A DNA stretch of 42,671 nucleotides from a virus. Below are positions 16,036 to 39,874 of this stretch, in pieces. Below the pieces are notes generated by a model, which was not told where the DNA came from, did not search any database, and was given only the letters and a program-made list of their open reading frames with translations. A program made the position numbers and the translations under genes. The DNA lies in IMG/VR virus record IMGVR_UViG_3300034198_011656, positions 1-42,671 of that record; one strand, written 5' to 3'. Numbering within the stretch: position 1 is the stretch's first letter; every line of letters begins with the position of its first letter.

Positions 16036-17082
16036 ATGCAGCTATATAAGCAAAACGAACAGCTTTGTTTTGATGATATTTTGTTGGTCCCACAAGCATC
16101 TGAAGTAGTCTCAAGAAAAGACATACACTTGGGTATGCAGATTGGATATGGCAAGTACGAGATTGATCTTCCATTTCCAGTAATTTCTGCACCAATGGAC
16201 ACAGTATGTGAGTCGGATATGGCATTAGAGATCGCAAAATTTGGCGGGCTTGGAATTATCCATAGATATCTTGATATCGAAAGACAGAGAGATGAGGTAT
16301 TCAAGGTAGCCAAAGAAGGTTTTCTAGTTGGAGCAGCAGTTTCTATCAAGGATGCAGAAGGCAACCAAGACGATATTTATAAATTGGTAAATGCTGGTGC
16401 AGGGGTAATTCTTCTTGATGTTGCAAATGGTCACAGTGTTTATGCTATTGACGCTGTTAGAAAAATAAAGCAAAAGTTTAAAATACATGTCATGGCTGGA
16501 AATGTTTCTACATGGGATGGATTTTTAAGTCTATCAATTGCTGGAGCAGACTCTATTCGCGTTGGAATTGGTGGAGGCTCTTGCTGCACAACCAGAATTG
16601 TTACTGGTCACGGAATGCCCACCTTGGCTTCCATTATGGATGTAAAAGAAATGCTTGACAGAATGGATGTTCCAACATCAATTATTGCAGACGGCGGAAT
16701 CAGAAATACTGGAGACATGATTAAATCATTCGCAGCTGGTGCAGATGCAGTAATGGTAGGTTCCATGCTTGCTGGACATGAAGAGTCCCCCGGACAAAAA
16801 GAATATACTGAAAATGGAACCTTTAAAACATTTCGTGGAATGGCAAGTGAAGATGCACAGATTGATTGGCGCGGAGAAGTTTCTGTTGCTGAAGGCATTT
16901 CAACAAAAATTAATTATAAGGGTGAAGTCATAAATACCCTGAAAGAAATTAAGGGTGGTCTGTCAAGTGGTTGTTCTTATTCAGGAGTAACAAATCTTAA
17001 TGATTTGCCATATAATTCACAGTACATCAAGGTTTCTACAATGAGCAATAAGGAGAGTCACCCACATGGGAAAAATGCCTAA
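16036..17082 (+). CDS. IMP dehydrogenase/GMP reductase family enzyme
   Basis: A 348-residue TIM-barrel enzyme of guanine nucleotide metabolism. The substrate-cysteine loop is GGSCCTTR with C184 in the catalytic place, preceded by the phosphate-binding VGIGGG and followed by [12 protein letters not shown]. It lacks the CBS domain pair of most IMP dehydrogenases. FRGMASED and [12 protein letters not shown] resemble GMP reductase, whereas VAEGI resembles IMP dehydrogenase. Reaction direction (IMP to XMP, or GMP to IMP) is therefore undecided. Guanine supply would matter here because the 28.8-31.9 kb genes use GDP-sugars. Confidence 0.88.
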
Positions 17083-22757: not shown

Positions 22758-24536
22758 ATGTTTAAAAAAATATCAAGGGTTTTGCCAATAGGCATCATGC
22801 TATTAGCAAGCCTTTTTTCCTTTTCTCCTGCTAAATCAGAACCAATAAATGGTCTTAATGTAGAAGTTTACACAATTAACAGCATGGGTGGGGCATATGA
22901 CGCTAAGCCCCGTCAAGACTGGCAATTATGCAGCACTGGATGGACATATTCTCCAAATATTGAGGCTAATTGGGGTGGTGGCATTGTTGCCAACTGCCGT
23001 GGGGATTTTGTCGCTATCCACTATTCGGGCTGGATCCATTACCCGGGGCCTGAAGATGGCGCAACTGTTGTGAGCTTTGACAACATCTCCGATGACGGCT
23101 TCACATTGGACATCGAGGGCCAAAGAGTCATCAACGACTGGAACTTGCACGGGTGTACAGGCAGAAGCGGTTTTTTCGTATTTGAAAACAACACTTGGTA
23201 CCCGCTGGACGCGTGGTTCTTCGAGTGGGGTGGTGGAGCATGCAACACGCTGTACTGGACTGTAGGCAATAATCGCACTGTAGTACCGTCATCTGCCTAC
23301 TCTACTAACAAAGCCGACCCCACAGTGCGATGCTGGGATGGCGCGATGGTCTATGACCAAAAAGAATGCTCAGAAGAGCCACAGATACCCTGTTGGAATG
23401 GAACAGTTGTTCACTATCAAGACGAGTGTCCTATCCAACCATATTTAAATGCGCCAAAAAATCTGCAAGTTAATGTAAAAAATGGGAATGTTTATCTAAA
23501 GTGGGATGCGCCTGATCCTAGTGATACGACTACTGTTGAGCACTATGCTGTGATGTTTAGTACCTCAACAATAAATGGTTGGGGGATATCAGTCTCTGAT
23601 CTTGAGGCTGTGCTTGACCAGTCTATGTTCATGAGCACAGGTGGTTTAGACCAATTATACAGTTTTATGATTAGGTCTGACAACGATAGTTCTGGGATCT
23701 ACTCGGCATACTCTGACCCCGTACAAGTTTTTATTGATGCACCGCATGTAACATGCTGGAATGGTGATGTTGTTTATGAACAAAGTTTTTGTTCTCCTGA
23801 ACCAAAACCGGAAGTTGAATGCTGGGACGGTTCAATGGTATTTGTAAGTGATGAGTGTCCCGTAGAACCAACGCCAAGCCCCACACCAACAGAGCCAACT
23901 GAAACACCAACGCCAACAACAACAGAGTCAACACCAGAACCTACTAATTCTGACAACCAAACTCAGAGTCCTGAGCCAACAATTTCTCCATCTGAGACTG
24001 TAGCTCCGCCCTCTGACGGTCCTTCTCCCAGCCCCTCAACGGTTGACCCTGAGCCTTCTTTCTCAGAATCTCCGACCACGCAGCCAACATTAATTGCTCC
24101 AACTGAAACACCTTCTCCTTCCGAATCTGTGACAAACATCACACCGGATGTTCTTCCTAATGATACCACAGAAGAAAAAGTAAATGAATTAATACAAAAT
24201 TTGCAACCCGGAGAAGCTGTTTCTGCAGAAGCATTTGCTGAATCAGGACTTGACTATGAAAATTTGCCACCAGACACTCCCGTTGAATTGCCAAATGGTG
24301 TTGTTCTTACTGCTGAAATAGCAGATGCTATTGAGATTTTTGAAAGTCCCGCTGAAATATTGAATACAGTTTTTAAAAATCCGGGAAAAGCATTGAAAGC
24401 CTTGGGCAATGTTGGTGCAGATTTGCCTCCAAAGAAAAGAAAAAAAGCGCAACAAGCCGTATTCCCAATGATTATTGTTGGACAAATTGCTGCATCAACA
24501 ACAATGACTTTAATGCAAAGGAGGGTTGGTAGATGA
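22758..24536 (+). CDS. Secreted modular PA14/FN3 surface protein
   Basis: A 592-residue exported protein with a signal peptide (about 1-27). A PA14-like, probably sugar-binding, domain spans about residues 28-180 and includes VVSFDNISDDGFTLDIEGQ. Four copies of a short Cys repeat, C-W-[DN]-G-x-[MV]-V-x5-[EF]-C, begin at nt 23331, 23391, 23754 and 23820, with a fibronectin-III-like domain between copies two and three. A Pro/Thr/Ser-rich stalk of about 110 residues and a C-terminal part with one hydrophobic helix follow. It could be displayed on the host cell or be a virion adhesin. The PA14 part is visibly richer in G and C than its neighbours. Confidence 0.72.
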   Translation: MFKKISRVLPIGIMLLASLFSFSPAKSEPINGLNVEVYTINSMGGAYDAKPRQDWQLCSTGWTYSPNIEANWGGGIVANCRGDFVAIHYSGWIHYPGPEDGATVVSFDNISDDGFTLDIEGQRVINDWNLHGCTGRSGFFVFENNTWYPLDAWFFEWGGGACNTLYWTVGNNRTVVPSSAYSTNKADPTVRCWDGAMVYDQKECSEEPQIPCWNGTVVHYQDECPIQPYLNAPKNLQVNVKNGNVYLKWDAPDPSDTTTVEHYAVMFSTSTINGWGISVSDLEAVLDQSMFMSTGGLDQLYSFMIRSDNDSSGIYSAYSDPVQVFIDAPHVTCWNGDVVYEQSFCSPEPKPEVECWDGSMVFVSDECPVEPTPSPTPTEPTETPTPTTTESTPEPTNSDNQTQSPEPTISPSETVAPPSDGPSPSPSTVDPEPSFSESPTTQPTLIAPTETPSPSESVTNITPDVLPNDTTEEKVNELIQNLQPGEAVSAEAFAESGLDYENLPPDTPVELPNGVVLTAEIADAIEIFESPAEILNTVFKNPGKALKALGNVGADLPPKKRKKAQQAVFPMIIVGQIAASTTMTLMQRRVGR

Positions 24537-25174: not shown

Positions 25175-25624
25175 ATGAGTGAACTAGCTACTAGATTAAA
25201 GACATTGCAGGCAAATGTATTCCAGATGTATGCACAGGCACATGGATACCACTGGAATGTAGAAGGAATGTTGTTCAAAGAATTACACGCCTTTTTCTTA
25301 GAGATTTACGAAGATGTTTTTGGTGCAATTGACCCCATTTCAGAGAATCTAAGAAAGCTAGACGACACAGCACCATTTGGTGCAAAGAATTGGCTACAGA
25401 ATGCCACAGTTTACATTAATGACAATGAAGTTCTAAGCCCAGTAGAGATGTTGAATGCTCTTGCATCAACAAATGAATCAATTATTGCCGAATTGAAAAT
25501 TATCTTCAAGGTTGCAGATGCAGCAGATGAGCAGGGAATTGCAAACTTTATTGCAGAGCGAATTGACCAGCATCAGTTCTGGCGTTGGCAAATTAAATCA
25601 ACCCTTAAAAAAGTCGTAATCTGA
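25175..25624 (+). CDS. Dps-like ferritin
   Basis: A 149-residue ferritin-fold protein of the Dps type. The residues that form the inter-subunit ferroxidase site of Dps are present with exact family spacing: H26, H38 (12 apart), D53 (15 apart) and E57 (4 apart), in YHWNVEG, ELHAFFLEIYEDVF and IDPISENL. Dps proteins oxidise and store iron and protect DNA from peroxide. The protein is close to normal length. TATAAT at 25162-25167, seven bases before the ATG with no ribosome site, suggests a leaderless mRNA. Confidence 0.88.
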   Translation: MSELATRLKTLQANVFQMYAQAHGYHWNVEGMLFKELHAFFLEIYEDVFGAIDPISENLRKLDDTAPFGAKNWLQNATVYINDNEVLSPVEMLNALASTNESIIAELKIIFKVADAADEQGIANFIAERIDQHQFWRWQIKSTLKKVVI

Positions 25625-25664: not shown

Positions 25665-25738
25665 GCCCTCGTAGCTCAGTGGATTAGAGCAATAGGTTTC
25701 TACCCTACAGGTCGGGAGTTCGAATCTCTCCGGGGGTA
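25665..25738 (+). tRNA. tRNA-Arg(UCU)
   Basis: A 74-nt cloverleaf: acceptor GCCCTCG/CGGGGGT (two wobble pairs) with discriminator A, D-stem GCTC/GAGC, anticodon loop TTTCTAC with anticodon TCT at 25699-25701 reading AGA, and T-loop TTCGAAT. The first anticodon-stem pair (A-C) is mismatched. CCA is not encoded. Confidence 0.85.
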
Positions 25739-25739
25739 C

Positions 25740-25811
25740 TGGCAATTGGTGAAACGGTTATCACATATCTCTGATAAGGATATATTACAAGTTCGATTCT
25801 TGTATTGCCAA
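25740..25811 (+). tRNA. tRNA-Ile(GAU)
   Basis: A 72-nt cloverleaf: acceptor TGGCAAT/ATTGCCA with discriminator A, anticodon stem TATCT/GGATA around CTGATAA (anticodon GAT at 25773-25775, reading AUC/AUU), and T-arm ACAAG-TTCGATT-CTTGT. The window encodes a second Ile tRNA with anticodon UAU, so all three Ile codons are covered. Confidence 0.85.
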
Positions 25812-25816
25812 CCAAT

Positions 25817-25888
25817 TCTCCCTTAGCTCAACGGCAGAGCAGAGAGCTGTTAACTCTAAGGTTGTTGGTTCGAATCCAGCAGGGAGAG
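25817..25888 (+). tRNA. tRNA-Asn(GUU)
   Basis: A 72-nt cloverleaf: acceptor TCTCCCT/AGGGAGA with discriminator G, D-stem GCTC/GAGC, anticodon loop CTGTTAA (GTT at 25849-25851) and T-arm with TTCGAAT. The outer anticodon-stem pair (G-A) is mismatched. CCA is not encoded. Confidence 0.87.
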
Positions 25889-25934
25889 CTTGGTTAATTT
25901 AATATGAATTGTTCTCCAACACTTATCTAAATCA

Positions 25935-25997: not shown

Positions 25998-27281
25998 ATG
26001 AAAAAGAAGATTTTTGCCGTTGCAGCAATCATTGCAACATTTATTTCAATTCCCGCGATTGCATCTATTAACAATGCAACGCTTGATGGAAAACCAACAA
26101 TTCTTACAACAGTGGGTTCCGATACAACATACCCACTTTCACTAGGATTATCAAAGATTTATAACGAATTGCCGGGATGCAAGACAACAGTCTACACAGG
26201 TCAGGCACTAGCAACATATGGAAACTGCACTAATGAAATCAATGGTGAAGTTGTTCCAAACGCAGAAGATCCAAACCCACAGCACGATTTTGTTGTTGAC
26301 CAATACCCAATTGGTTCAGGTTCTGGAGCAAAACTAGTTCTTGACTCAGTTATTGCAAACTCATATGGATTAAATGCCGATATTGGAAGATCATCATCAG
26401 TTCCACCAAATGTTCTAAATGCAATTGCTTTTGCAAAAGAAGGTCTTTCGTGGTTCCACTTTACTAAAGTTAATGGTACAACCACAAAGCATGCGGCGAT
26501 TACTAATTTAACACCAGTCCAACTTGCAAACATTTATTCTGGTAATATTACAACATGGAATGAACTTGCACCAACAGACAAGATTTTAGGAAACATGAAG
26601 TCTTATAAGTCTGGAACAAAAACAATTGTAGCGGGAATTAATAATGGAAACCCTGCTACAAATTGTCAGGACAAGTGGGTTTCCTGCACTCCAATTGTTG
26701 TTTATTCAGCACAAGATGGAAGCGGTACAAGAAAAGCTTGGGATGAGTTTATGCGAGTTGGAATGACTGCATATACTTTATCAACAAATGTCAAGAAGAT
26801 TTTTGAAAATGACGCATCTCCAATTATTCAAAATGGTGATGCAACAAATGCAATCTTTTATTTCTCTACAGCAAGATATGCATATAGAAATAATATTTCT
26901 TTGAAGACTGGAAATAACAAAGGTTATGTATTTGGAAACACAGTTGGAAATTCAGTAAACCTGAAAAATTATGCAGACGCAATAGGCAATGTAAATGGAA
27001 CTGCGCCAAGCATTACTAATATTAAAATTGCATCTTTTCCGTTTAGCAGAAACATGTTCATGTCAACTAAGAAAACTCCATCGGCTTCCGTAAAGAACTA
27101 CATCAGATTTATTTGTTCAGCAGATATGGATACACTTAAAGACTCGTATGGAACATCAATCAAGTCATTGATTGATTCAGCTATTCAGTCTGAAGGATTC
27201 ATTAGATTTGACAAGTCAATTGATCAAAATCTTGACGGAGAAGTTTACTCTGGATACTGCAAGACAACGCTTGCTAAATGA
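25998..27281 (+). CDS. pstS: PstS-like phosphate-binding protein
   Basis: A 427-residue secreted substrate-binding protein. The signal peptide (MKKK, hydrophobic core, AIASI) has no lipobox cysteine, unlike cellular Gram-positive PstS lipoproteins. Family signatures are GSDTTYPL near the mature N-terminus, YPIGSGSGAK, the IGRSSS loop, NLTPVQLANIYSGNITTWNE and AQDGSGTRKAWDEF, which contribute the phosphate-coordinating Ser, Asp and Arg. Phosphate capture for the host's Pst transporter during infection is the likely role, as in marine phages. It is coupled by a four-base overlap to a sortase-fold membrane protein that could hold it at the cell surface. Confidence 0.9.
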   Translation: MKKKIFAVAAIIATFISIPAIASINNATLDGKPTILTTVGSDTTYPLSLGLSKIYNELPGCKTTVYTGQALATYGNCTNEINGEVVPNAEDPNPQHDFVVDQYPIGSGSGAKLVLDSVIANSYGLNADIGRSSSVPPNVLNAIAFAKEGLSWFHFTKVNGTTTKHAAITNLTPVQLANIYSGNITTWNELAPTDKILGNMKSYKSGTKTIVAGINNGNPATNCQDKWVSCTPIVVYSAQDGSGTRKAWDEFMRVGMTAYTLSTNVKKIFENDASPIIQNGDATNAIFYFSTARYAYRNNISLKTGNNKGYVFGNTVGNSVNLKNYADAIGNVNGTAPSITNIKIASFPFSRNMFMSTKKTPSASVKNYIRFICSADMDTLKDSYGTSIKSLIDSAIQSEGFIRFDKSIDQNLDGEVYSGYCKTTLAK

Positions 27282-28078
27282 TAAAAAAACAAATACTAAA
27301 ATATCTAGCATATTTAGTAATAGCATTTGTAACATTTGAATTATCAATCTCGTATGTATTTTATATGAGAGGTCAGGTTGCAGGAGCTGTAAATCTTTAT
27401 CATAAATTTCAAAAGGCAAATGGGGCGATAGGTTTAACCGACCTGTCGCCCCTGCCTAATGAACCCTTTGCTGTAGGAGACTCCATTGCACTAATTAAAA
27501 TTCCCGCAATACAATCAGAGCAAATAGTTTTTGAAGGATCTCAAGCAGCGATCACTCAAAAAGGCATTGGTCATATGTCTGGAAGCGCCGGGATAGCAGA
27601 AAGAGGAATGTCCGTTTTAGTAGGAAGAAGAACAAGTTGGGGAGCCCCATTTGCTTATTTGCCAAAATTAAAAGTTGGAGATAAAATATCAACAACAACT
27701 GTGGCTGGAACAATGGATTATAAAGTTGTAAAGCTTAATGCAACATTTGAAGATTTAAATATTAAGTATAATAAATCAATGCTCGCATTAATGACTAGCA
27801 GTAACCCCATACTTGGATTGGGTAGCTATATAGTTTTAGCGGAAGCACAGAAAAATCCATATCCGCCTACTCCACAAAATAGAAAAGATGATGGAGTTGA
27901 CTATAATTTGTTTTTTGTAGTATACTTGCTGTTAATAATTACAATCTTGTTTTTTTATAAACAATTTGTAAATCAATTTGATAAAATAATTGCATATTCA
28001 ATAATTTCTCCTACGCTAATATTTTTATTTATATTGTTTGCAAAAGAACTTGACAAGCTCATGTCAACTACGCTATAA
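27278..28078 (+). CDS. Sortase-fold membrane protein lacking catalytic residues
   Basis: A 266-residue protein with an N-terminal membrane helix (about 8-29), a class E-like sortase domain (about 66-190) and two C-terminal membrane helices (about 210-230 and 238-258). The fold is recognisable from IALIKIPAI, GIGHMSGS, RTSWGAPFAYLPKLKVGDKI and LALMTS. The catalytic His of the usual GHRT is R117 (VGRRT). The Cys of the usual TC is S174 (MTSSNP), and the usual Arg of R-L-I-V-x-A-E is S183 (SYIVLAEA). It is therefore unlikely to be a transpeptidase. Co-translation with the pstS-like gene suggests an anchoring or docking role; this is inference. Confidence 0.82.
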   Translation: MIKKQILKYLAYLVIAFVTFELSISYVFYMRGQVAGAVNLYHKFQKANGAIGLTDLSPLPNEPFAVGDSIALIKIPAIQSEQIVFEGSQAAITQKGIGHMSGSAGIAERGMSVLVGRRTSWGAPFAYLPKLKVGDKISTTTVAGTMDYKVVKLNATFEDLNIKYNKSMLALMTSSNPILGLGSYIVLAEAQKNPYPPTPQNRKDDGVDYNLFFVVYLLLIITILFFYKQFVNQFDKIIAYSIISPTLIFLFILFAKELDKLMSTTL

Positions 28079-28092: not shown

Positions 28093-28164
28093 GGCTTCAT
28101 CGTCTATCGGTTAGGATATGAGATTTTCACTCTCATGGACAGGGTTCGACTCCCTGTGGAGCTG
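28093..28164 (+). tRNA. tRNA-Glu(UUC)
   Basis: A 72-nt cloverleaf: acceptor GGCTTCA/TGGAGCT with two wobble pairs and discriminator G, anticodon stem TGAGA/TCTCA around TTTTCAC (TTC at 28126-28128), and T-arm CAGGG-TTCGACT-CCCTG. It is the first gene after a strong promoter. CCA is not encoded. Confidence 0.88.
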
Positions 28165-28391
28165 CAACAATAGGGTCGCTCCTTATTGGAGAATGGCTGA
28201 ATAATCGGTGCAGGAAACTTAGCCGATAAAGCAGGCACATGGGAAAGATAACCCCTGAAATGGCAAATGCTAATCGGGGGGATTGTGAAGGTACACAAGA
28301 ATTCCTAGGTAAACCAACCAGTGTGTCGTCTGGGAACTAACAGATCCAATGTTTCCTTCCTAGTGTGGGTGGAATCCCACTTCTCACTCTT
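28165..28391 (+). other. Unexplained 227-nt structured stretch inside tRNA array
   Basis: No gene or tRNA fits here. Several helices can be drawn: an 8-bp hairpin 28168-28175 with 28181-28188; TTGTG/CACAA at about 28283-28298; TCTG/CAGA near 28330; and a nested hairpin at 28362-28388 (AGTG..GTGGG/CCCAC..CACT). CCGAT at 28223-28227 can pair with ATCGG at 28204-28208 or at 28273-28277, so the structures are mutually exclusive. There is no T-arm consensus, so it is not a long-variable-arm tRNA. It may be a structured RNA processed with the tRNAs, or a decayed tRNA gene block. Confidence 0.4.
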
Positions 28392-28789: not shown

Positions 28790-29803
28790 ATGAAAAAAGC
28801 TTTGATTACAGGAATCACGGGTCAAGATGGTTCCTATTTGGCAGAATTGTTATTGGAAAAGGGTTATGAGGTTCATGGTATCAAGCGCAGAACCTCTTTG
28901 ATTAATACAGATAGAATTGACGATATTTTTGAAGAGAATGAAAACTTTTATTTGCATTATGGCGATTTGACGGACTCAACAAATCTTATTAGGCTGATTG
29001 GTGAAATTCAACCAGATGAAATTTACAACCTTGGCGCACAGAGCCATGTTGCCGTTTCATTTGAGACTCCGGAATACACAGCAAATAGTGATGCAATAGG
29101 AGTTCTAAGAATGCTTGAGGCTATCCGAATTCTTAAGATGGAAGATAAGGTTAGATTCTATCAAGCATCTACATCTGAAATGTTTGGTCTTGTTCAAGAG
29201 ATTCCACAAACAGAAAAGACTCCTTTCTATCCAAGGTCTCCATATGGGGTGGCAAAGCTTTACGGACACTGGATTACAAAGAATTACCGCGAAGCCTATG
29301 ACATGTATGCTTGCAGTGGAATTCTATTCAATCACGAATCTCCAAAGCGTGGAGAGACATTCGTTACCCAGAAAGTTGTAATGGGCTTGAGAGATATTGC
29401 TAATGGCAAGCAGGACTGTTTGTATCTAGGAAATCTTAATGCCTTACGCGATTGGGGACACGCAAAAGATTTTGTTCGTGCTATGTGGCTTATGCTTCAG
29501 CAAGAAAAGCCGGAAGACTTTGTTATTGCAACAGGCAAGCAGTATTCCGTTAGGGAGTTTGTAAATGCTTGCGCTCCATACTTCGGCATGAAGATCTTTT
29601 GGGAGGGCTCAGGCTTGCAGGAAAAGGGCATTGACCTGAATACAAATAAGGTTGTTGTACGAGTTGACCCTAAGTATTTCCGACCCGCAGAAGTAGAAAC
29701 ACTCCTTGGCGATTCTTCCTATGCTAAAGAAAAACTTGGATGGGAGCCAGAGATTTCATTTGACGAACTAGTAAAGGATATGTGTCTTAATGGAATTAAC
29801 TAG
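28790..29803 (+). CDS. gmd: GDP-mannose 4,6-dehydratase
   Basis: A 337-residue extended short-chain dehydrogenase that converts GDP-D-mannose to GDP-4-keto-6-deoxy-D-mannose. Diagnostic elements are the nucleotide-binding [13 protein letters not shown], the RRTS that contacts the cofactor, the catalytic STSEMFG, Y-x3-K in YGVAKLYG, and [17 protein letters not shown], which is specific to Gmd. It is slightly shorter than bacterial Gmd (about 345-370). The next gene overlaps it by 14 bases and takes its product. Confidence 0.93.
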
Positions 29804-30731
29804 TAAAATTTATGTGGCAGGTCATCGTGGACTTGTCGGATCATCAATAATGCGTAAGCTAAAAGAAGCTGGGTACACAAATGTATTCGGTTCAGATAGA
29901 AAGAATTTAGACTTGCGCGATCAGCGAGCCGTTGAAGCATTCTTCAACGCTAATAAGCCGGACTATGTATTTTTTGCAGCAGCAAAAGTCGGGGGAATTA
30001 GTTTTAATAAAGCTGCCCCTGCCGATTTTATTTATGACAATCTTCAAATCCAGAACAATGTCATTAGCTCTGCACATAAGCACGGAGTAAAAAAGTTGTT
30101 GTTCTTAGGTTCAGCTTGCATTTATCCGAAGGTGACTCCACAACCAATCAAGGAAGAGTATCTTCTTTCGGATTATCTTGAGCCTACTAATGAAGGCTAT
30201 GCGCTCGCTAAGATTGCAGGATTGAAAATGTGTCAGATGTACAAGCAGCAATATGGATTTAATGCCATCTCCTTGATGCCTGCAAACTTATACGGACCCA
30301 ATGATAATTTTGACATTGAGAAATGCCATGTTATTCCAGCTATGATTAATAAGTTTATCTCTGCAAAAAACAATAACATTGATGAAGTTGTATTGTTCGG
30401 AGATGGAACTCCAACTCGTGAGTTTTTGCATGTAGATGATTTGGCAGATGCTTGTTTGTTCTTGATGAACAATTATGATGAAACTGAACATATCAATGTC
30501 GGATCTTCTGAGGAATATACAATTAAAGATTTGGCTGATATTGTCGCCAAAGCTACAGGATACTCTGGTAAAATTATCTGGGATACAACAAAGCCGAATG
30601 GCACTCCAAGGCGCAAGTTGGACAACTCAAGAATAAATGCCCTTGGGTGGAAGTCTAAGATTAGCCTAGAGGCGGGATTAAAGGAAACAGTAGAATGGTA
30701 TTTGAACACTGGAGGGCAGCGTAATGTCTAG
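29790..30731 (+). CDS. GDP-L-fucose/GDP-L-colitose synthase (epimerase-reductase)
   Basis: A 313-residue short-chain dehydrogenase of the GMER/WcaG family. It has [10 protein letters not shown] for [12 protein letters not shown], the catalytic SACIYP, Y-x3-K in YALAKIAG, and [14 protein letters not shown]. It epimerises at C3 and C5 and reduces at C4. Fcl makes GDP-L-fucose; its close relative ColC makes GDP-L-colitose from the 3-deoxy intermediate. Because the next gene is ColD-like, colitose is as likely as fucose. Overlaps gmd by 14 bases and the next gene by eight. Confidence 0.88.
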
Positions 30732-31884
30732 TTGGAAACTTATGAAGAATACAATAACGCCTTTTGATAGAATCAAAATGGCTTATTTCGCATTATCAAC
30801 TAAGCAATTTACCAACGGCCCTAAGGTTCGTGAGTTTGAAAAGAAGTGGAATCAATGGCTTGGATCGCATTATTCACTTTATGTCTCGTCTGGTAGCACA
30901 GCAAATTTTTTGCTTGTTGCAGCAATCAAAGAAAAGTATAATCTCAAGGATGGCGACAAGGTTTTGTTGCCTGCCTGCACATGGGTTACCAATGTCGGTC
31001 CAATCATTCAGCTAGGTCTTGAGCCAGTTTTTTGTGACATCAATCTTGAAGATTACAGCTTTGATTACAAAGCGTTGGACTATGTAAAAAAACAACATCC
31101 AGATATTAAGATGGTGTTTGTCACCCACCTTTTGGGATTCCCTGCGGATACTTCGCAAATTAAAGCTATTTTCCCGGAAGCAATCATTATTGATGATGTT
31201 TGCGAATCACACGGAGCAAGAGACTTTTATGATAAAGTTGGCGCTAATAGTTTAGGTGCTACATTCAGTTTTTATTTTGGTCACCACATGACAACAATTG
31301 AGGGCGGTATGGTCTCAACGAATGACCGCGAACTCTATGATCTTATGAAGATGAAGAGAAGTCATGGATTAGCCAGAGAGTCAGTTAATTTTGATGAGTA
31401 TGCCGCAAAGTATCCACATATCCAAAGGTCTTTCTTGTTTATTACTGATGGATATAACTTTAGAAATCACGAAATTTGTGCTGTTTTAGGTCTTTCACAA
31501 TTAAAGCGCCTGAACAGAATGATTAAGAAGCGGTACAGAAACTATATTGATTTCCGAAACATCATCAATAGGTATCCGCATTTATTCCACAATGCAGCAG
31601 TAAACCCTCGCAATAGTAGTTTCTGTTTCCCAATTATTTGCAAGGACAAAAATACAAGAGATTCGCTGATGCGTGAGTTTGATAAACATAAGATTGAATA
31701 CAGACCGATTGTAAGTGGCAATCTTCTAAGTCATCCATTCCTTCAGGATTACAAAATTTGCAGCCAGAAGGAATTGAACAATGTGGACTTGTTGAATGAA
31801 TACGGTGTCTATCTTGGCAACAGCCACTTTGTTGGTCGGAAGGAAATGAAAAAGCTTGCAAAGATTGTTGAGGGCATAGCTTGA
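30724..31884 (+). CDS. colD: ColD-like GDP-4-keto-6-deoxy-D-mannose 3-dehydratase
   Basis: A 386-residue fold-type I PLP enzyme of the DegT/AHBA family. The usual Schiff-base lysine is replaced by histidines at 187-188 in FSFYFGHHMTTIEGG, the hallmark of ColD, which removes the C3 hydroxyl rather than transaminating. Other ColD-like features are VSSGSTAN for the PLP phosphate, IDDVCESHGA and the long RPIVSGNLL..NNVDLLNEYGVYLGN stretch (described in pieces). With Gmd and the preceding reductase it completes GDP-L-colitose synthesis. An ordinary aminotransferase is excluded if the histidine is real. Confidence 0.85.
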   Translation: MSSWKLMKNTITPFDRIKMAYFALSTKQFTNGPKVREFEKKWNQWLGSHYSLYVSSGSTANFLLVAAIKEKYNLKDGDKVLLPACTWVTNVGPIIQLGLEPVFCDINLEDYSFDYKALDYVKKQHPDIKMVFVTHLLGFPADTSQIKAIFPEAIIIDDVCESHGARDFYDKVGANSLGATFSFYFGHHMTTIEGGMVSTNDRELYDLMKMKRSHGLARESVNFDEYAAKYPHIQRSFLFITDGYNFRNHEICAVLGLSQLKRLNRMIKKRYRNYIDFRNIINRYPHLFHNAAVNPRNSSFCFPIICKDKNTRDSLMREFDKHKIEYRPIVSGNLLSHPFLQDYKICSQKELNNVDLLNEYGVYLGNSHFVGRKEMKKLAKIVEGIA

Positions 31885-32651
31885 TAACAACATACATAAC
31901 ATGTTGGAACAGAGTTTTAGCTGATGTTGCAGCCAAGGAGAAAGAGTTTGTTATAAACAAACTTCCCTACTTTGTTATCAACTCTGCAACCGAACAACCA
32001 AAACACTGGATTAATATTGGCGATCAGGCTTGGTGCTATCGGCAATTGTTTGAAACATTTAAGCATGCAAGAAACATTGATTCAGAATACATATCAGTAC
32101 TATTTGGCGACATCTATGCGCCAGAAGGTAGCAATATAATTGATTATGTAAAAGAAACTTCTGAAAAAATTAAAACTCTTCCAGATTGTTTTGTTTACAC
32201 AACATCATTTACGCATGATGGTTGGAGTTATCCCCAACTTATTTTAAAACATCACGATGAAGAAATTGCATATGTTTGTGGCACTGATACTTTATACATG
32301 ACATTGCATAAAAATGTGTATAATTTCTGTGCAGATTTCTTAGATTATTTTGACAAAAAACATGGCATAGACAATTTCTTTAGCGGCTGGGCAGTTGATG
32401 TAGTCTGTTCCTTATATTCTATTTACAATAGAAAAAATGTATTCCGAAATAAAAAATCAATTCTAGTTCACTATGAAAACAGTGGCTATAATGTTGACAG
32501 GGCATACTCAGAAATGGAATTAATAATAACTGAGGCAATCAACTATATGTCAGAAAATTTAGGGTACAATAAAGACGCTCTGAACATACTGAAAAATATG
32601 ATTATGGAGCAAAGATCTTATGCGGGATACAATTATTATAATTTTTACTAA
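31881..32651 (+). CDS. Putative GT-A glycosyltransferase or sugar-island protein
   Basis: A 256-residue protein starting at TTG 31881, overlapping colD by four bases. It opens with TTYITCWNRVLADVA, a strand-loop-helix as in nucleotide-sugar transferases, and has VLFGDIYAPEG and IAYVCGTDTLYMTLHK, where D-x-D-like acidic pairs could bind metal. I cannot match it to a named family; context in a glycosyltransferase island gives the call. Confidence 0.55.
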   Translation: MITTYITCWNRVLADVAAKEKEFVINKLPYFVINSATEQPKHWINIGDQAWCYRQLFETFKHARNIDSEYISVLFGDIYAPEGSNIIDYVKETSEKIKTLPDCFVYTTSFTHDGWSYPQLILKHHDEEIAYVCGTDTLYMTLHKNVYNFCADFLDYFDKKHGIDNFFSGWAVDVVCSLYSIYNRKNVFRNKKSILVHYENSGYNVDRAYSEMELIITEAINYMSENLGYNKDALNILKNMIMEQRSYAGYNYYNFY

Positions 32652-32661
32652 TGGAGATTTT

Positions 32662-33471
32662 ATGAAAAATTTTAAGTCATTCTACATCATTCCGATTCAT
32701 AATAAAGAAATAATGATTAAAAATGTTTTAGATGGTATTTCAAATTCTCACGATTATTCTACTGGCGCACCTATAGTTATTTGTATACTTGATGGATGTA
32801 CTGATAATTCAGAAAAAATAATCAGAAATCATCAACTTGAAACAAATATTATTTATGAAAATGATGTTCACGAAATTAAATCTTTAAACAAAGGGCTAAT
32901 GTTTATTCGAAATAATCTTTCCCCATTACCCAATGATCTTATTTTTATGATTCAAGATGATGTAATTCTTGATGAAAAAAACATTAATGATAAATTTGCA
33001 AATTTGTTTGAAGCTTTCCCCCAATTAGGCTATGTATCAATGCGAATGGGAATGAATGTAAGTAGTGATGGCAGTCAGCTTTTAGAAAATAATTTGATAG
33101 AATCAGAGTTCGGCGCATGGGACCAGCTAGGTTGGAATGCACATACAAGCATTAAACATAATAATATTATTTTTTGCGAAGTAGTTGTCAGAAGTCCCAC
33201 TTGTATGATGTGGAAGAGATTTGAAGAAGTGGGTTTTTTTGATGAGAATCTTGCTCCAGCTGGATTTGATTGTCATGATATGAGCATTAGGTTGAACAAG
33301 CTTGGCTATCAAAATGCTTTATATACAATGAAATATATTTCAGATGTCACTTGGGGGACAATGCGCCAACCTGAGCATAAAGAAAAAGATCATTATATTC
33401 ATGCAATATATGACAGAAATAGGAATTATTTAGCGCAAAAGCATAGGGGCTATTTTAATGAAAAATTTTAA
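32662..33471 (+). CDS. GT2-family glycosyltransferase
   Basis: A 269-residue GT-A enzyme: YIIPIHNKEIMIKNVLDGI, VICILDGCTDNSEKII for the nucleotide, then the metal motif IQDDVI. A later W-D-Q-L-G-W and AGFDCHDMSIRL segment lines the acceptor side. The frame is open from 32620, but ATG 32662 has a GGAG site and follows the previous stop. The donor sugar is unknown. Noticeably AT-rich. Confidence 0.8.
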   Translation: MKNFKSFYIIPIHNKEIMIKNVLDGISNSHDYSTGAPIVICILDGCTDNSEKIIRNHQLETNIIYENDVHEIKSLNKGLMFIRNNLSPLPNDLIFMIQDDVILDEKNINDKFANLFEAFPQLGYVSMRMGMNVSSDGSQLLENNLIESEFGAWDQLGWNAHTSIKHNNIIFCEVVVRSPTCMMWKRFEEVGFFDENLAPAGFDCHDMSIRLNKLGYQNALYTMKYISDVTWGTMRQPEHKEKDHYIHAIYDRNRNYLAQKHRGYFNEKF

Positions 33472-34285
33472 TGTTTATGGTGGTGTCGGGAAAGTTCCTA
33501 CTGGGACCTATATTGATCATACCCATGAATCTCCAAAATACAATAGTTACCCGTTTATTAAAAATATTAAATGGGTATTTGATGGTTTAGCGCAAGATAA
33601 TTTTTACATAGATGAAGAACTTGTGACTGCTTTTCAACATGGCCCGAGCATCAAAAAATATGGCTGGCTGCTAGAAAGCAAAGTGGTAATCCCCCAAGTC
33701 TATGAGCATTTTCTTGAGAACATTGATGTTTATATGAATGTTTATGAGCTAGTTTTCACCAGCGACAGATCTATTTATCTAATGCACGATAGAATTAAGT
33801 TTGTTCCAGCCAACACGCTTTGGGTCAAAGATTTGAATATTTACAATAAAACAAAATTGCTTTCTATGATTTGCTCAAATAATCAGCTTACTGAAGGACA
33901 TAGAGATAGATTGCAATGGGTTAATAAATTGACCGGGGTGGCTGACATTTATGGTAGAGGCATAAATCCAATCTCAAGAAAAGAAGATGGCTTGATAGAT
34001 TATATGTTTTCAGTTGCTATTGAAAACTCATCCTATGCTTCTTATTTTACAGAGAAGATTTTAGATTGCTTTGCGACTGGCACTATTCCTATTTATAAGG
34101 GGTCGCCAGACATAGGTAATTTCTTTAATAAAGAGGGAATTATAATTCTTGATGATAATTTTGATTTCTCTACATTAAACAATGATTTGTACTATTCTAA
34201 AATGGATGCCATCAAAGATAATTTTGAAAGAGTCAAGGAATACATAGTTCTTGAAAATTATATTTATGATAGGTACTTAAAATGA
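33458..34285 (+). CDS. GT10-like fucosyl/colitosyltransferase, copy 1
   Basis: A 275-residue protein whose C-terminal half has the GDP-fucose-binding signature of family 10: YMFSVAIENSSYASYFTEKI followed by LDCFATGTIPIYKGSPDIGNFF. GT10 enzymes move L-fucose from GDP-L-fucose, usually in alpha-1,3 or alpha-1,4 linkage; related enzymes accept GDP-colitose. A paralogous gene follows directly, and donor-synthesis genes lie 3 kb upstream. Overlaps its neighbours by 14 and 4 bases. Confidence 0.82.
   Translation: MKNFNVYGGVGKVPTGTYIDHTHESPKYNSYPFIKNIKWVFDGLAQDNFYIDEELVTAFQHGPSIKKYGWLLESKVVIPQVYEHFLENIDVYMNVYELVFTSDRSIYLMHDRIKFVPANTLWVKDLNIYNKTKLLSMICSNNQLTEGHRDRLQWVNKLTGVADIYGRGINPISRKEDGLIDYMFSVAIENSSYASYFTEKILDCFATGTIPIYKGSPDIGNFFNKEGIIILDDNFDFSTLNNDLYYSKMDAIKDNFERVKEYIVLENYIYDRYLK
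34184..34242 (+). repeat. 59-bp direct repeat, copy 1
   Basis: This stretch in the 3' part of the first GT10-like gene is identical to 34969-35027 in the second. Upstream in both genes another shared run (ATTCTTGATGATAATTTTGA) is present, whereas the rest of the two genes has diverged. Recent local gene conversion is likely. Confidence 0.85.
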
Positions 34286-35076
34286 AAATAGAGATTAATG
34301 TATTTGGTGGAGATGCCAGTACCGTAGATCCTTATAAAGATGCAAAGCCGATAAGCTGGAAATATGATTTTTCATCAAGTAATAATTTATATATAAATCA
34401 ACACATCTCTGAAGTATTTTTTGATTTGTCAAGTAATAAAAAATACGCATGGATTAATGAATCTAAATCAATTATTCCAAATGTCTATGATGATCTTTAT
34501 AAAAATATTGATCAATATTATTTATTATTCGATGGTATTCTTACGCACACTAAAGATTTATATCAAAAAATGGAAAAAGCTAAATTTGTACCCGCCTCAC
34601 AGATCTGGGTATCTAATTTAAAAATTTACAAAAAGGACAAATTAATTTCAATGATTACATCAAACAAATTAATGTGTGAGGGGCATAAAATTAGAATGAA
34701 ATGGGCTGATTATTTTATTGATAAGGTTGATATGTATGGAATAGGGTTTAATCCTATAGAAAAAAAAGAAGAAGGTCTTGACAGATATATGTTTTCTGTT
34801 GCAATAGAAAATGCTTGTTACGAATCTTATTTCACAGAAAAAATTTTAGATTGTTTTGCAACAGGAACCATTCCTGTTTATCTAGGAACTCCAGACATAG
34901 GGGATTTCTTCAATCTTGATGGAATAATAATTCTTGATGATAATTTTGATATAATGTCAATAACACCTGATTTGTACTATTCTAAAATGGATGCCATCAA
35001 AGATAATTTTGAAAGAGTCAAGGAATATATTTTTGTTGAAAATCATATCGCAAAACAGATTGGTGAATTAACATGA
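34282..35076 (+). CDS. GT10-like fucosyl/colitosyltransferase, copy 2
   Basis: A 264-residue paralogue of the preceding gene. The same donor-binding stretch is present as RYMFSVAIENACYESYFTEK then ILDCFATGTIPVYLGTPDIG, followed by DFFNLDGIIILDDNFD. The N-terminal acceptor half is only weakly similar, suggesting a different acceptor or linkage with the same donor. It overlaps copy 1 and the methyltransferase by four bases each. Confidence 0.82.
   Translation: MKIEINVFGGDASTVDPYKDAKPISWKYDFSSSNNLYINQHISEVFFDLSSNKKYAWINESKSIIPNVYDDLYKNIDQYYLLFDGILTHTKDLYQKMEKAKFVPASQIWVSNLKIYKKDKLISMITSNKLMCEGHKIRMKWADYFIDKVDMYGIGFNPIEKKEEGLDRYMFSVAIENACYESYFTEKILDCFATGTIPVYLGTPDIGDFFNLDGIIILDDNFDIMSITPDLYYSKMDAIKDNFERVKEYIFVENHIAKQIGELT
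34969..35027 (+). repeat. 59-bp direct repeat, copy 2
   Basis: Identical to 34184-34242 in the preceding paralogue; encodes DLYYSKMDAIKDNFERVKEY near the C-terminus. Perfect identity over 59 bases contrasts with the diverged remainder of the genes. Confidence 0.85.
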
Positions 35077-35744
35077 AAAAAGATTTTATAGATTTAGAAA
35101 AATTCAATAATTATTGTTTAAACAAAAAAACATATTCTCAGTTAAATCAAGATTTATTTGTATCTTACATGACTGAGAATAAGCGCGGTGGTTATTTTGT
35201 GGAGTTTGGAGCCACAGATGGTTTGGAGCTTAATAATACATATTCTTTAGAAAAAGAATACGGTTGGGATGGAATTCTTTGTGAGCCTAATTTTATTTAT
35301 CACAAAAATTTAATTAAAAATAGGTCATGTCATATTGATACCAGATGCGTTTACACTTCAACAGGCTCAATAATTAATTTTTTATTTTGCAGTGATCATC
35401 CTATGGCATCAACAATTAATTATTACAGAAATTGTGATGAACATGCAAATATTAGATACGGAACAGAGTATCCTATCACAACAGTATCTTTAAACGATTT
35501 ATTGGATCATTATTCAGCTCCAGAAGTTATAGATTACATGTCAATAGATACTGAAGGTTCGGAATTGGATATATTGTTAAGTTTTAATTTTTCAAGACAA
35601 ATAAATCTTGTTACTATTGAACACAACAATACCCCTAACCGTGATTTAATTAAACAATTAATGGAAGCAAATAATTTTGTAAGAGTTTTTGAGCAAATAG
35701 CAAAGTGGGACGACTGGTATATAAATAGGAGTTTTCTTGATTAA
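35073..35744 (+). CDS. FkbM-family methyltransferase
   Basis: A 223-residue SAM-dependent methyltransferase. The FkbM pattern is clear: QLNQDLFVSYMTENKRGGYF, VEFGATDGLELNNTY for SAM, ILCEPNFIYH, VSLNDLLDHY and IDYMSIDTEGSELDILL. Members methylate sugar hydroxyls in surface glycans. In the island it probably caps or tailors the glycan made by its neighbours. Overlaps of four and eight bases with adjacent genes support co-expression. Confidence 0.85.
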   Translation: MKKDFIDLEKFNNYCLNKKTYSQLNQDLFVSYMTENKRGGYFVEFGATDGLELNNTYSLEKEYGWDGILCEPNFIYHKNLIKNRSCHIDTRCVYTSTGSIINFLFCSDHPMASTINYYRNCDEHANIRYGTEYPITTVSLNDLLDHYSAPEVIDYMSIDTEGSELDILLSFNFSRQINLVTIEHNNTPNRDLIKQLMEANNFVRVFEQIAKWDDWYINRSFLD

Positions 35745-36399
35745 AACACATTTAATAACATTTACAAGCAAATCGCATGTTTATAGAGAAGAAATTACAA
35801 ATCCAAAAATTTCAAAATATTTTGATTATATAAAAAACTATCGTGAGTCTGAATTGTCAAAGGATTTTATAGAAGAAAATTTTTCCATATTTAATGAAAA
35901 AAGAGGATTTGGATATTGGATATGGAAGCCTTGGATTATTATTGACTATTTAAACAATCATGTTCACAATGAAGATGATATTATCGTTTACATTGATGCC
36001 GGAGATACTTTAGATCACACTGTATTTCTTTCTGCAATTAAAAAACTAACAAAACAAAAAATTTATGCAATACATGGTCCACATGCTAATAAAGAATGGA
36101 CAAAAAGAGATTGTTTTTTACTTATGGGATGCGATGAAGAAAAATTTTATACAGACTTTCAAATTTATTCTAGCTTAATTGTTTTCAAGAAAAATGAATT
36201 TACTTTAAACTTTTTCAATGAATGGCAAAAGTATTGCTTAGATAGAAGAGCTATCACCGATGATCCAAATGTGCTTGGAAAAAATAATTTTCCAGAGTTC
36301 AAAGAGCATAGACACGATCAATCAATTTTTCATAACTTAATGATTAAATATGGCATTGAAACTGTAGAACTGAAAACCCCTCATGACTGGAGCGTATAG
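35737..36399 (+). CDS. Putative glycosyltransferase (GT-A-like)
   Basis: A 220-residue protein with a TTG start behind AGGAG. It has RGFGYWIWKPWIIIDYL, a D-x-D-like YIDAGDTLDH, and DQSIFHNLM near the end, a layout seen in capsular-type GT-A transferases with an initial 'YWxWKP' segment. Donor and acceptor are unknown. The gene is very AT-rich. It is the last gene before a promoter-like palindrome. Confidence 0.7.
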   Translation: MIKTHLITFTSKSHVYREEITNPKISKYFDYIKNYRESELSKDFIEENFSIFNEKRGFGYWIWKPWIIIDYLNNHVHNEDDIIVYIDAGDTLDHTVFLSAIKKLTKQKIYAIHGPHANKEWTKRDCFLLMGCDEEKFYTDFQIYSSLIVFKKNEFTLNFFNEWQKYCLDRRAITDDPNVLGKNNFPEFKEHRHDQSIFHNLMIKYGIETVELKTPHDWSV

Positions 36400-36416
36400 C
36401 AAATATTTGCTATAAT
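36397..36416 (+). promoter_or_regulatory. TAGCAAA palindrome overlapping a -10 box
   Basis: A perfect 16-bp palindrome, TAGCAAATATTTGCTA (36397-36412), overlaps TATAAT at 36411-36416, upstream of the GT11 gene at 36444. No -35 match at normal spacing. The same half-sites occur at 22728-22745, near another promoter. Confidence 0.5.
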
Positions 36417-36443
36417 TGCAACTTAAACAATAGAAAGAGAAAA

Positions 36444-37247
36444 ATGATAACTTTCAGCGAACTTGGAAACATGGGACATCTTGGCAATCAAATGTTCCAA
36501 TATGCTTCTTTGCGGGGAATAGCAAGCAATAATAATCTCGACTGGGCTATTCCATCACGACAGGAATTCGGATCAAGATATCCACTAAGAAGCAGCATCT
36601 ATGACTGTTTTGAGCTAGAATCACATACCGATAAAAACATCATTGTCTCTCAACCCACAGCAGTATTCCCTGAGAGGCATTATCATTTTGATGATTCTTT
36701 ATATAACAATTGTCCTGATGGAATTGACTTGAATGGTTATTTCCAAACTGAGAAGTACTTTGAGCACATCAAAGATTCAATCAAAAAGGATTTTACATTT
36801 AAAAAAGAGATTCGTGAAAGAGCAGAACCCCTGCTGGAAAATTTTGACAAAAAGAGCACTGTGATTGTTCATGTCAGAAGGACAGATTATGTCGGCAATG
36901 ATTTGCATCACTTCAATATTCCGCCATCTTATTATTCAGCAGTTCTGAATGGAATAAACTGGAAGAAAGATGTAATTTTTATTTCTGATGATATTGAATG
37001 GTGTAAACTACAGCCTGAGTTTTTAAACATTCCCAATGTTTCATTCTCAAGCGAAAGTCCATATGTCGATCTTTGCCTTATGACTATGTGCGGAACCGTA
37101 ATTATGGCTAACAGCTCGTTTAGTTGGTGGGGAGCTTGGTTGAATGAAAATAAAGACAAGACTATAATTGCACCATCGAAATGGTTTGGTCCAGCCTTAC
37201 AACACAGCACTAAAGATTTGATACCAAGCGATTGGTTTTTGGTTTAA
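36444..37247 (+). CDS. GT11 alpha-1,2-fucosyl/colitosyltransferase
   Basis: A 267-residue family 11 transferase. Motifs are GHLGNQMFQYASLRG at the N-terminus, the donor-binding VIVHVRRTDYVGN, and FSSESPYVDLCLMTMCG followed by ANSSFSWWGAWL. These enzymes use GDP-L-fucose in alpha-1,2 linkage, and bacterial relatives use GDP-colitose. With Gmd, the Fcl/ColC-type reductase and the ColD-like enzyme upstream, donor and transferase are encoded together. It has its own promoter-like element. Confidence 0.87.
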   Translation: MITFSELGNMGHLGNQMFQYASLRGIASNNNLDWAIPSRQEFGSRYPLRSSIYDCFELESHTDKNIIVSQPTAVFPERHYHFDDSLYNNCPDGIDLNGYFQTEKYFEHIKDSIKKDFTFKKEIRERAEPLLENFDKKSTVIVHVRRTDYVGNDLHHFNIPPSYYSAVLNGINWKKDVIFISDDIEWCKLQPEFLNIPNVSFSSESPYVDLCLMTMCGTVIMANSSFSWWGAWLNENKDKTIIAPSKWFGPALQHSTKDLIPSDWFLV

Positions 37248-39063: not shown

Positions 39064-39570
39064 ATGACGCTATCAAGGAAAGCGTTTTGCTCCCTAATTG
39101 CGCCTCTTATGGCAATGTCCATAATGCTACCAGTTAGCCCAGCAAGCGCTGTACAAGAAACGACAAAGCAAGTAGTAAAAGTAGTAAAGCAAGAAAAGAA
39201 AAAGATAGTCAAGAAGAAAAAGAAAGAAATTAAAATTAAAAAAAGAGCTTCTCGCTCAACCATGCGTTCTGTTGCCAGAAGGTATGCAATTGTAACGATG
39301 AAAAAAAAATACAATTGGAGCTTGAAGCAATTCGGATGCCTTGACCACATTTGGGAAAATGAAAGTCATTGGCAATTTGATGCTAAGAACAGGCGTTCAG
39401 GTGCGCTTGGCATTCCTCAAGCATACCCCGGAAAAAAGATGAAGAGCGCTGGTAGAGATTACAAGACAAACTACAAGACTCAAATCAAATGGGGTTTGAA
39501 TTACATCAAGAAGAGATATGGTACTCCCTGCCAAGCTCATCACTTTAGAAAGAGGCATGGATACTACTAG
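39064..39570 (+). CDS. Secreted lytic transglycosylase-like protein
   Basis: A 168-residue exported protein with a signal peptide (cleavage near PASAVQE), a Lys-rich linker (about 33-62) and a C-terminal lysozyme-like domain: FGCLDHIWENESHWQFDAKN with the catalytic Glu in the WENESHW segment, GALGIPQAYPGKKM, and KWGLNYIKKRYGTPCQA. This is the transglycosylase type of Gram-positive phages. It could open peptidoglycan for DNA entry or act from outside. Its stop codon (39568-39570) shares a base with the tmRNA that follows. Confidence 0.85.
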   Translation: MTLSRKAFCSLIAPLMAMSIMLPVSPASAVQETTKQVVKVVKQEKKKIVKKKKKEIKIKKRASRSTMRSVARRYAIVTMKKKYNWSLKQFGCLDHIWENESHWQFDAKNRRSGALGIPQAYPGKKMKSAGRDYKTNYKTQIKWGLNYIKKRYGTPCQAHHFRKRHGYY

Positions 39571-39863
39571 GGGTAGATCGGTTTCGACATTCGTTTGGAG
39601 CAATCTACAGCAGCTCAAGTTGTGAAAACTTGTAAAACATCACAAAACAAATAATCGGCACATTTATTACCGAATCAGCACTGCGCAACAAGATTGCAGA
39701 ATTCGTAAGAGTTCCTGTAGCAGCGTAATCGCCGCGCCGTAACTCGCGTGGGAACAGAAGAGTTACACTAGCACTACCAAAGCAGTAAAAACAAATCAAT
39801 TATGGCTGTATAACTGTAATTAGGAAGGGCGATTGGACGCGGGTTCGATTCCCGCCTACTCCA
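39570..39863 (+). ncRNA. ssrA: tmRNA (transfer-messenger RNA)
   Basis: A 294-nt tmRNA. The tRNA-like ends pair as GGGGTAG (39570-39576) with CTACTCC (39856-39862), discriminator A. The 5' end has the conserved GATCGGTTTCGACA, and the 3' end has the T-arm GCGGG-TTCGATT-CCCGC. A tag frame opens at GGC 39657 after TAATC and ends at TAA 39726-39728. It encodes 23 residues beginning GTFITES and ending RVPVAA, which is longer than typical tags, and VPVAA replaces the usual ALAA. CCA is not encoded. Phage tmRNAs are rare and this one could rescue stalled ribosomes or change protein turnover in infected cells. Confidence 0.9.
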
Positions 39864-39874
39864 CAAGGTGTAAT

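Follow-up and report, generated by a model that had tools for sequence, protein, structure and literature searches.

Pst systems are among the best-studied nutrient transporters. The phosphate loops of their binding protein, PstS, comprise T, GSGxG, S/D and RxxxSGT elements (motif according to PMC10987575, where the word sortase is absent), and host-derived phosphate-binding pstS genes are known in cyanophages and other phages (PMC10976474, PMC10987575). The class E sortases of Actinomycetota (PF04203, NF033747; PDB 5go5) display an N-terminal membrane helix and an extracytoplasmic domain, and share both traits, as well as their fold, with one of the phage proteins described below. A search limited to the open-access literature returned nothing relevant on a sortase linked with PstS or a pst operon, or on a pseudo-sortase.

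In this work, we analyzed the virus record IMGVR_UViG_3300034198_011656, of 42.7 kb and without end repeats, whose whole stretch of 42,671 nt is referred to as the window. Its DNA polymerase is 55-57% identical over 98% to those of Streptomyces phages Wakanda, Muntaha and BillNye, and the phage is therefore placed near this group; 59 loci related to this polymerase were identified in IMG/VR. Between tRNA genes, the window harbors a gene slot occupied by two genes, secPstS and psrt, with the following features:

25665..25889, + strand: tRNA-Arg, tRNA-Ile (25740-25814, like the one fused in the relict described below) and tRNA-Asn, left side of the slot
25998..27281, + strand: secPstS, secreted PstS-like substrate-binding protein of the GSDTT type, 427 aa, intact ORF (PF12849)
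25998..26063, + strand: Sec-type signal peptide of secPstS, about residues 1-22, by hydropathy
26388..26390, + strand: R131 of the GRSS motif of secPstS, invariant among the aligned secPstS relatives
26709..26732, + strand: AQDGSGTR motif of secPstS, residues 238-245, by alignment to 4gd5/4q8r
27278..27281, + strand: ATGA, stop/start overlap of secPstS and psrt (translational coupling)
27278..28078, + strand: psrt, Pst-linked pseudo-sortase, 266 aa, with three membrane helices and an extracytoplasmic sortase barrel
27281..27427, + strand: N-terminal helix of psrt, residues 2-50, including the first membrane span
27626..27628, + strand: R117 of psrt at the catalytic His position, in every alignment
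27797..27802, + strand: S174/S175 of psrt at the catalytic Cys position, by alignments
27824..27826, + strand: S183 of psrt at the catalytic Arg position, in every alignment
27911..28072, + strand: C-terminal membrane helix pair of psrt (212-233, 236-265)
28093..28165, + strand: tRNA-Glu, right side of the slot

Other genes of the window were recorded along with the pair. A ferritin/Dps-like protein (25175-25624), presumably involved in oxidative-stress protection, adjoins the slot on the left and is kept in the related loci L062 and L064. A sugar cluster at 28790-37247 encodes a GDP-mannose dehydratase, a second NAD-dependent epimerase (GDP-fucose synthase-like), a DegT aminotransferase and fucosyltransferases of families 10 and 11; its G+C content falls to 0.28 at 34-36 kb, which suggests a recent foreign origin. 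The phage also carries an IMP dehydrogenase/GMP reductase-family gene (16036-17082; PF00478, E 9e-99) and a 592-aa secreted, Ser/Thr/Pro-rich protein with a C-terminal hydrophobic segment and basic tail (22758-24536), of which the C-terminal part alone is kept in L064 (16395-17639), the N-terminal part being swapped. A tmRNA gene, that is, a phage-borne trans-translation RNA, was located at 39570-39866 (Rfam RF00023, 101 bits), with the unusual predicted tag GTFITESALRNKIAEFVRVPVAA; the relative L065 also carries a tmRNA gene (1155-1439).

The secPstS protein scores above the cut-off for PF12849 (E 1.7e-12, 48.1 bits; cut-off 27) and under the curated cut-off for TIGR02136 (54.4 against 206.6 bits). 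Its leader is hydrophobic at residues 4-23, and its first Cys occurs only at residue 61, so that no lipobox is present; the description of a secreted PstS-like protein lacking a lipobox, made in a first-pass annotation of this DNA, was therefore confirmed. The protein ends in CKTTLAK, without a membrane helix and without an LPxTG/LAxTG-type sorting signal, in agreement with the earlier view that the pair lacks a sortase substrate signal. Among the phosphate-loop elements, T, GSG and SGT are kept, and the Arg of the classical RxxxSGT loop is A238, a residue likewise replaced in the aligned host secPstS relatives. From its context, the ligand is likely phosphate, with the replacement of the classical loop Arg counting against a firmer assignment. 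R131 falls, by alignment, in the loop holding the ligand Asp of classical PstS, and is specific to the family.

The second gene starts within the first one, the four-base overlap noted previously being the ATGA at 27278-27281. Its product matches PF04203 (E 9.8e-14), and its best subfamily is the class E sortase NF033747 (E 1.6e-15), with 57.5 bits, under the curated cut-off of 160. An AlphaFold2 model built from 24 rows (mean pLDDT 86) displays a helix at residues 2-50, a sortase barrel, and two helices at 212-233 and 236-265, which upholds the earlier assignment of a three-helix protein with a class E-like sortase domain. In the PDB, Foldseek aligned this model with sortases, among them 4d70 (TMt 0.76) and the sortase E 5go5 (TMt 0.70). 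Among viral structures, Foldseek gave no match at E <= 0.001. The change of all three catalytic positions was also verified, with R117 and S183 found in every alignment and the Cys column corresponding to S174 when psrt is aligned with its closest relatives (S175 in two other alignments); the whole protein contains zero Cys.

Relatives of psrt were searched for in actinobacterial genomes using patterns made of the window psrt and the expected class E motif, where composed rows set the search patterns only; matches were verified against the window protein, and composed rows were kept out of all trees and counts. The best match, from an actinobacterial MAG (L066), is full-length (residues 6-266, E 9e-25), displays GRRT for GHRT and TTS for TTC, and is encoded in a pst operon with the order anchored pstS1, pseudo-sortase, pstC, pstA, pstB, pstS2. 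Its gene overlaps pstS1 by ATGA (starting 4 bp inside the pstS gene), and the operon also has a divergent secreted PstS of the GSDTT type of the window. One operon member (L193) was obtained with the sortase profile, and L213, L215/L226, L216, L218 and L219 by searching with the L066 anchored PstS. When a profile of eight members (A8) was applied to 375 genomes from a single actinobacterial class, the scores were largely two-humped: 51 genomes gave hits at E <= 1e-50, almost all full-length, and the rest of the matches were weaker, above 1e-37, and to the sortase domain. Among 392 genomes spread over the phylum, matches at E <= 1e-100 were found in eight. Sixty loci were fetched, followed by another fifteen belonging to the order of G560. 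Altogether, the profile searches of actinobacterial genomes, some of them incomplete, identified 76 relatives of psrt (77 members with the window), several of whose loci are near copies and all of which descend from one ancestor.

At the catalytic His column, 72 of the 77 members carry Arg and 5 carry Lys, with no His in any of them (R 57, K 5 in the first 62, window included). The Cys column of these first 62 members is occupied by Ala (42), Ser (14), Gly (3), Thr (2) or Val (1), and the fifteen later members display Arg at the His position in all cases, Ser or Ala at the Cys position, and the catalytic Arg in none. Thus, the expectation that homologues would always lose His and Cys held in 77/77; for the Arg it held in 76/77, since L066 alone keeps it. 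A control set (n=90) of ordinary sortases, which as a group keep the triad, comprised 79 relatives within class E and a further 11 sortases, non-Pst, that came with the same fetches. It showed His in 90/90, a count inflated by the selection of loci partly with a GHR-type pattern, whose [RH] choice did allow Arg; Cys was present in 84 of the 85 controls alignable there. The one without it is an acidimicrobiian class E-like sortase (L067:5674-7599) with His kept and with Cys and Arg replaced by Ser and Gln, respectively, situated outside a pst operon within the 9 kb seen, and is possibly a second, independent pseudo-sortase.

Genes pstC, pstA, pstB or membrane-anchored pstS were found in the fetched stretch of 75/76 member loci versus 0/90 control loci, an association tested only by the non-seed members because the eight seeds were found in pst operons; the sole member locus without pst genes (L271) ends at a contig end. 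The gene hence occurs with pst rather than away from pstS, as had been anticipated. In one of these operons, a 292-aa secreted protein ending in IPRTGG plus a membrane helix is encoded directly before the pseudo-sortase (L218:14139-15017), and this end may be a leftover sorting signal. A careful tree of 42 rows, built as all our trees with the catalytic columns included, placed the pseudo-sortase family and the active sortases on the two sides of a branch supported at 100/99, and grouped the window with L353 and L356 (100/99). The same split was recovered in a quick tree of 113 rows (SH-aLRT 99), in which L347-L361 were absent and the window, on a long branch, adjoined L309. An active-type sortase (L190) that scores in the range of the weakest members was separated from them on the basis of motif and context, and groups with the active sortases in the trees. 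The window psrt has the defining architecture of the family: a sortase domain that lacks His and Cys, flanked by three membrane helices in all. These results place the second gene in a family of pst-operon sortases that is monophyletic, derived from class E, catalytically dead and three-helix. The loss of catalysis is ancestral to the host family and, most simply, represents one event kept since, not 77 events; degeneration within the phage was discarded as its cause, given that every host relative shows it.

The pair as such was counted in the order of G560, represented by 119 genomes. Of these, 12 were matched by a secPstS profile, exactly the 12 with a window-type pseudo-sortase, and both genes were adjacent and on the same strand in 11 of them. 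The proposal that the pair is always adjacent was consequently supported in 11/12 host genomes, the twelfth (G812) being cut by a contig end 75 bases past its pseudo-sortase. In L356, which encodes the secPstS closest to that of the window (62% identity over 416 aa; 41% for L353), this gene directly adjoins the pseudo-sortase. The gene order in the host is pseudo-sortase then secPstS, whereas secPstS comes first in the phage. Neither a lipobox nor a C-terminal membrane helix is present in secPstS of the phage, L356 or L309; pstS1 and pstS2 of the same host operons have a C-terminal membrane helix, so that these operons hold two PstS types with such a helix and a third without it, none of them lipid-anchored. 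The absence of a lipobox is therefore normal in these operons, and the first-pass annotation erred in treating it as unusual; its suggestion of a phage-specific arrangement was also overturned, as the same pair is part of a widespread actinobacterial Pst operon. The PhoP-box repeat known from Streptomyces is G(G/T)TCAYYYR(G/C)G, and GTTCACCTAGG, located between the divergent pst units of the L309 operon, fits this consensus perfectly; none above chance was found upstream of the phage pstS. The hosts carrying the closest relatives are likely freshwater low-GC actinobacteria.

Within phages, no convincing match to secPstS or psrt was obtained in 50,697 phage records, and neither a PstS relative nor a sortase domain in 50 related phage contigs searched whole, many of them fragments. 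Single-protein pattern scans of viral contigs and genomes, as well as scans with alignments partly of typed expected-consensus sequences or with a host relative added, gave nothing with the few short peptides employed, a scope too narrow to prove absence. A plasmid search retrieved ordinary class C and D sortases only. The closest relative of secPstS being bacterial, and no phage relative having been found, the phage gene is best regarded as host-derived. The flanking phage genes and tRNAs of the window are syntenic with those of its relatives. In the closest phage relative (L050), whose polymerase is 94% identical to that of the window, a 58-codon frame after tRNA-Asn (L062:1501-1677) matches psrt residues 2-48 (38%, E 4.7e-5) and then runs into TTCGATTCTTGTATCGCCAACCA, the 3' end of tRNA-Ile. 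This frame is a truncated psrt relict at the same site as the window slot, produced most simply by recombination; the fusion of the psrt 5' end with the tRNA-Ile 3' end points to the tRNA genes of the slot as the place where it occurred. An assembly chimera or artefact was rejected as the source of the pair on account of the flank synteny and this relict. In L064 (polymerase 84%), an Hsp20-like gene occupies the slot, which together with the relict identifies it as a site of gene turnover. Related phages do without the pair, so its importance does not extend to every one of them.

Regarding function, the phage pair is a two-gene slice of a host Pst operon, probably taken from an actinobacterium, and we see an even chance that it acts as secPstS plus membrane dock. 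The pseudo-sortase would be an accessory subunit of Pst. Its former substrate groove, altered by the His to Arg and Cys to Ala/Ser changes, would hold PstS non-covalently, and its helices would keep PstS at the membrane, perhaps against PstCA, so that the unanchored binder would hand its ligand to the permease rather than being lost. By making an extra binding protein with its own dock, the phage could increase phosphate capture by the host PstCAB during infection, a gain paralleling the role proposed for cyanophage PstS. Docking is suggested by the gene context, the topology and the lost catalysis, and the His position is uniformly occupied by Arg or Lys, as if this pocket kept a function, e.g., binding an acidic tail or surface. 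For these features, we infer that a membrane dock for unanchored PstS beside PstCA is the most economical reading; against it, the PstS proteins of many operons are anchored and should have no need of a dock. A broader proposal, that a type of actinobacterial Pst has an obligatory extra subunit, a retired sortase presenting soluble binders to PstCA without lipid or covalent anchor, and that phages steal binder and dock, has somewhat less than an even chance.

The position of the pseudo-sortase gene, often directly before pstB (L259, L281, L287, L226), would also suit an integral membrane protein of the pst operon that regulates or gates the transporter, sensing PstS occupancy and controlling PstCA or Pho signalling with no anchoring needed; contact with PstC or PstA could be made by the additional pair of C-terminal membrane helices, and the phage copy would keep uptake on. 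We consider this unlikely, as the pseudo-sortase has no cytoplasmic signalling domain, its tight partner in the phage's host order is secPstS, and the phage pairs it with secPstS and not with transporter genes. This last choice likewise weighs against a retired sortase that recognizes the C-terminal tails of anchored PstS non-covalently, as chaperone or retention factor, since the secPstS taken along is tail-less. Anchored pstS1 does precede and overlap the pseudo-sortase gene in L066 and L309, the end of anchored PstS (membrane helix plus basic tail) resembles worn-out sorting signals, and the L218 neighbour still ends in IPRTGG and a helix; even so, we judge this explanation quite unlikely.

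Two further alternatives concern the phage alone. Phages often alter the host surface, and a pair that is surface-exposed and lies in a moron slot flanked by tRNA genes, in a phage that also carries fucose and glycosyltransferase genes, might serve a role other than uptake, such as the exclusion of other phages, with a surface receptor being masked or decoyed. Both proteins are, however, orthologues of a host nutrient-uptake module, and Pst parts are not known to be phage receptors in these hosts, which makes such a role improbable. The pair could instead be a transient, functionless passenger on its way out, considering its absence from the other relatives searched and the truncated relict in the closest one; two intact, translationally coupled frames with the family motifs GRRT, TSS and GSDTT kept render this very improbable.

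Membrane docking, the reading that we favor, would explain how Gram-positive cells keep lipid-free binding proteins at the transporter; the broader proposal, if true, would make this the first sortase family converted to a non-catalytic role in transport. In one actinobacterial class, about one in seven of the genomes sampled (51/375) has this conserved pseudo-enzyme in a pst operon. In comparison with class E sortases, with many of which found here, Acidimicrobiia included, psrt has the C-terminal helix pair in common, its His, Cys and Arg are replaced, it scores under the NF033747 cut-off, it has no LPxTG/LAxTG-type partner, and its family sits in pst operons (75/76 loci). With regard to PstSCAB (PF12849, TIGR02136), secPstS belongs to the same binding-protein superfamily, with the GSG and SGT loops, and the host relatives of the pair lie in pstC-pstA-pstB operons; unlike described Pst systems, the lipobox and the loop Arg are missing and an extra pseudo-sortase subunit is present. 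Streptomyces phages Wakanda, Muntaha and BillNye have a similar polymerase, but no convincing match to secPstS or psrt. A pseudo-sortase as a component of the actinobacterial pst operon, and a phage that captured it along with its partner, are apparently undescribed: whereas phage-borne pstS genes are already known (PMC10976474, PMC10987575), here an actinobacterial secPstS is accompanied by a dedicated pseudo-sortase partner, and the phage would have taken a binder-plus-dock module, not pstS alone.
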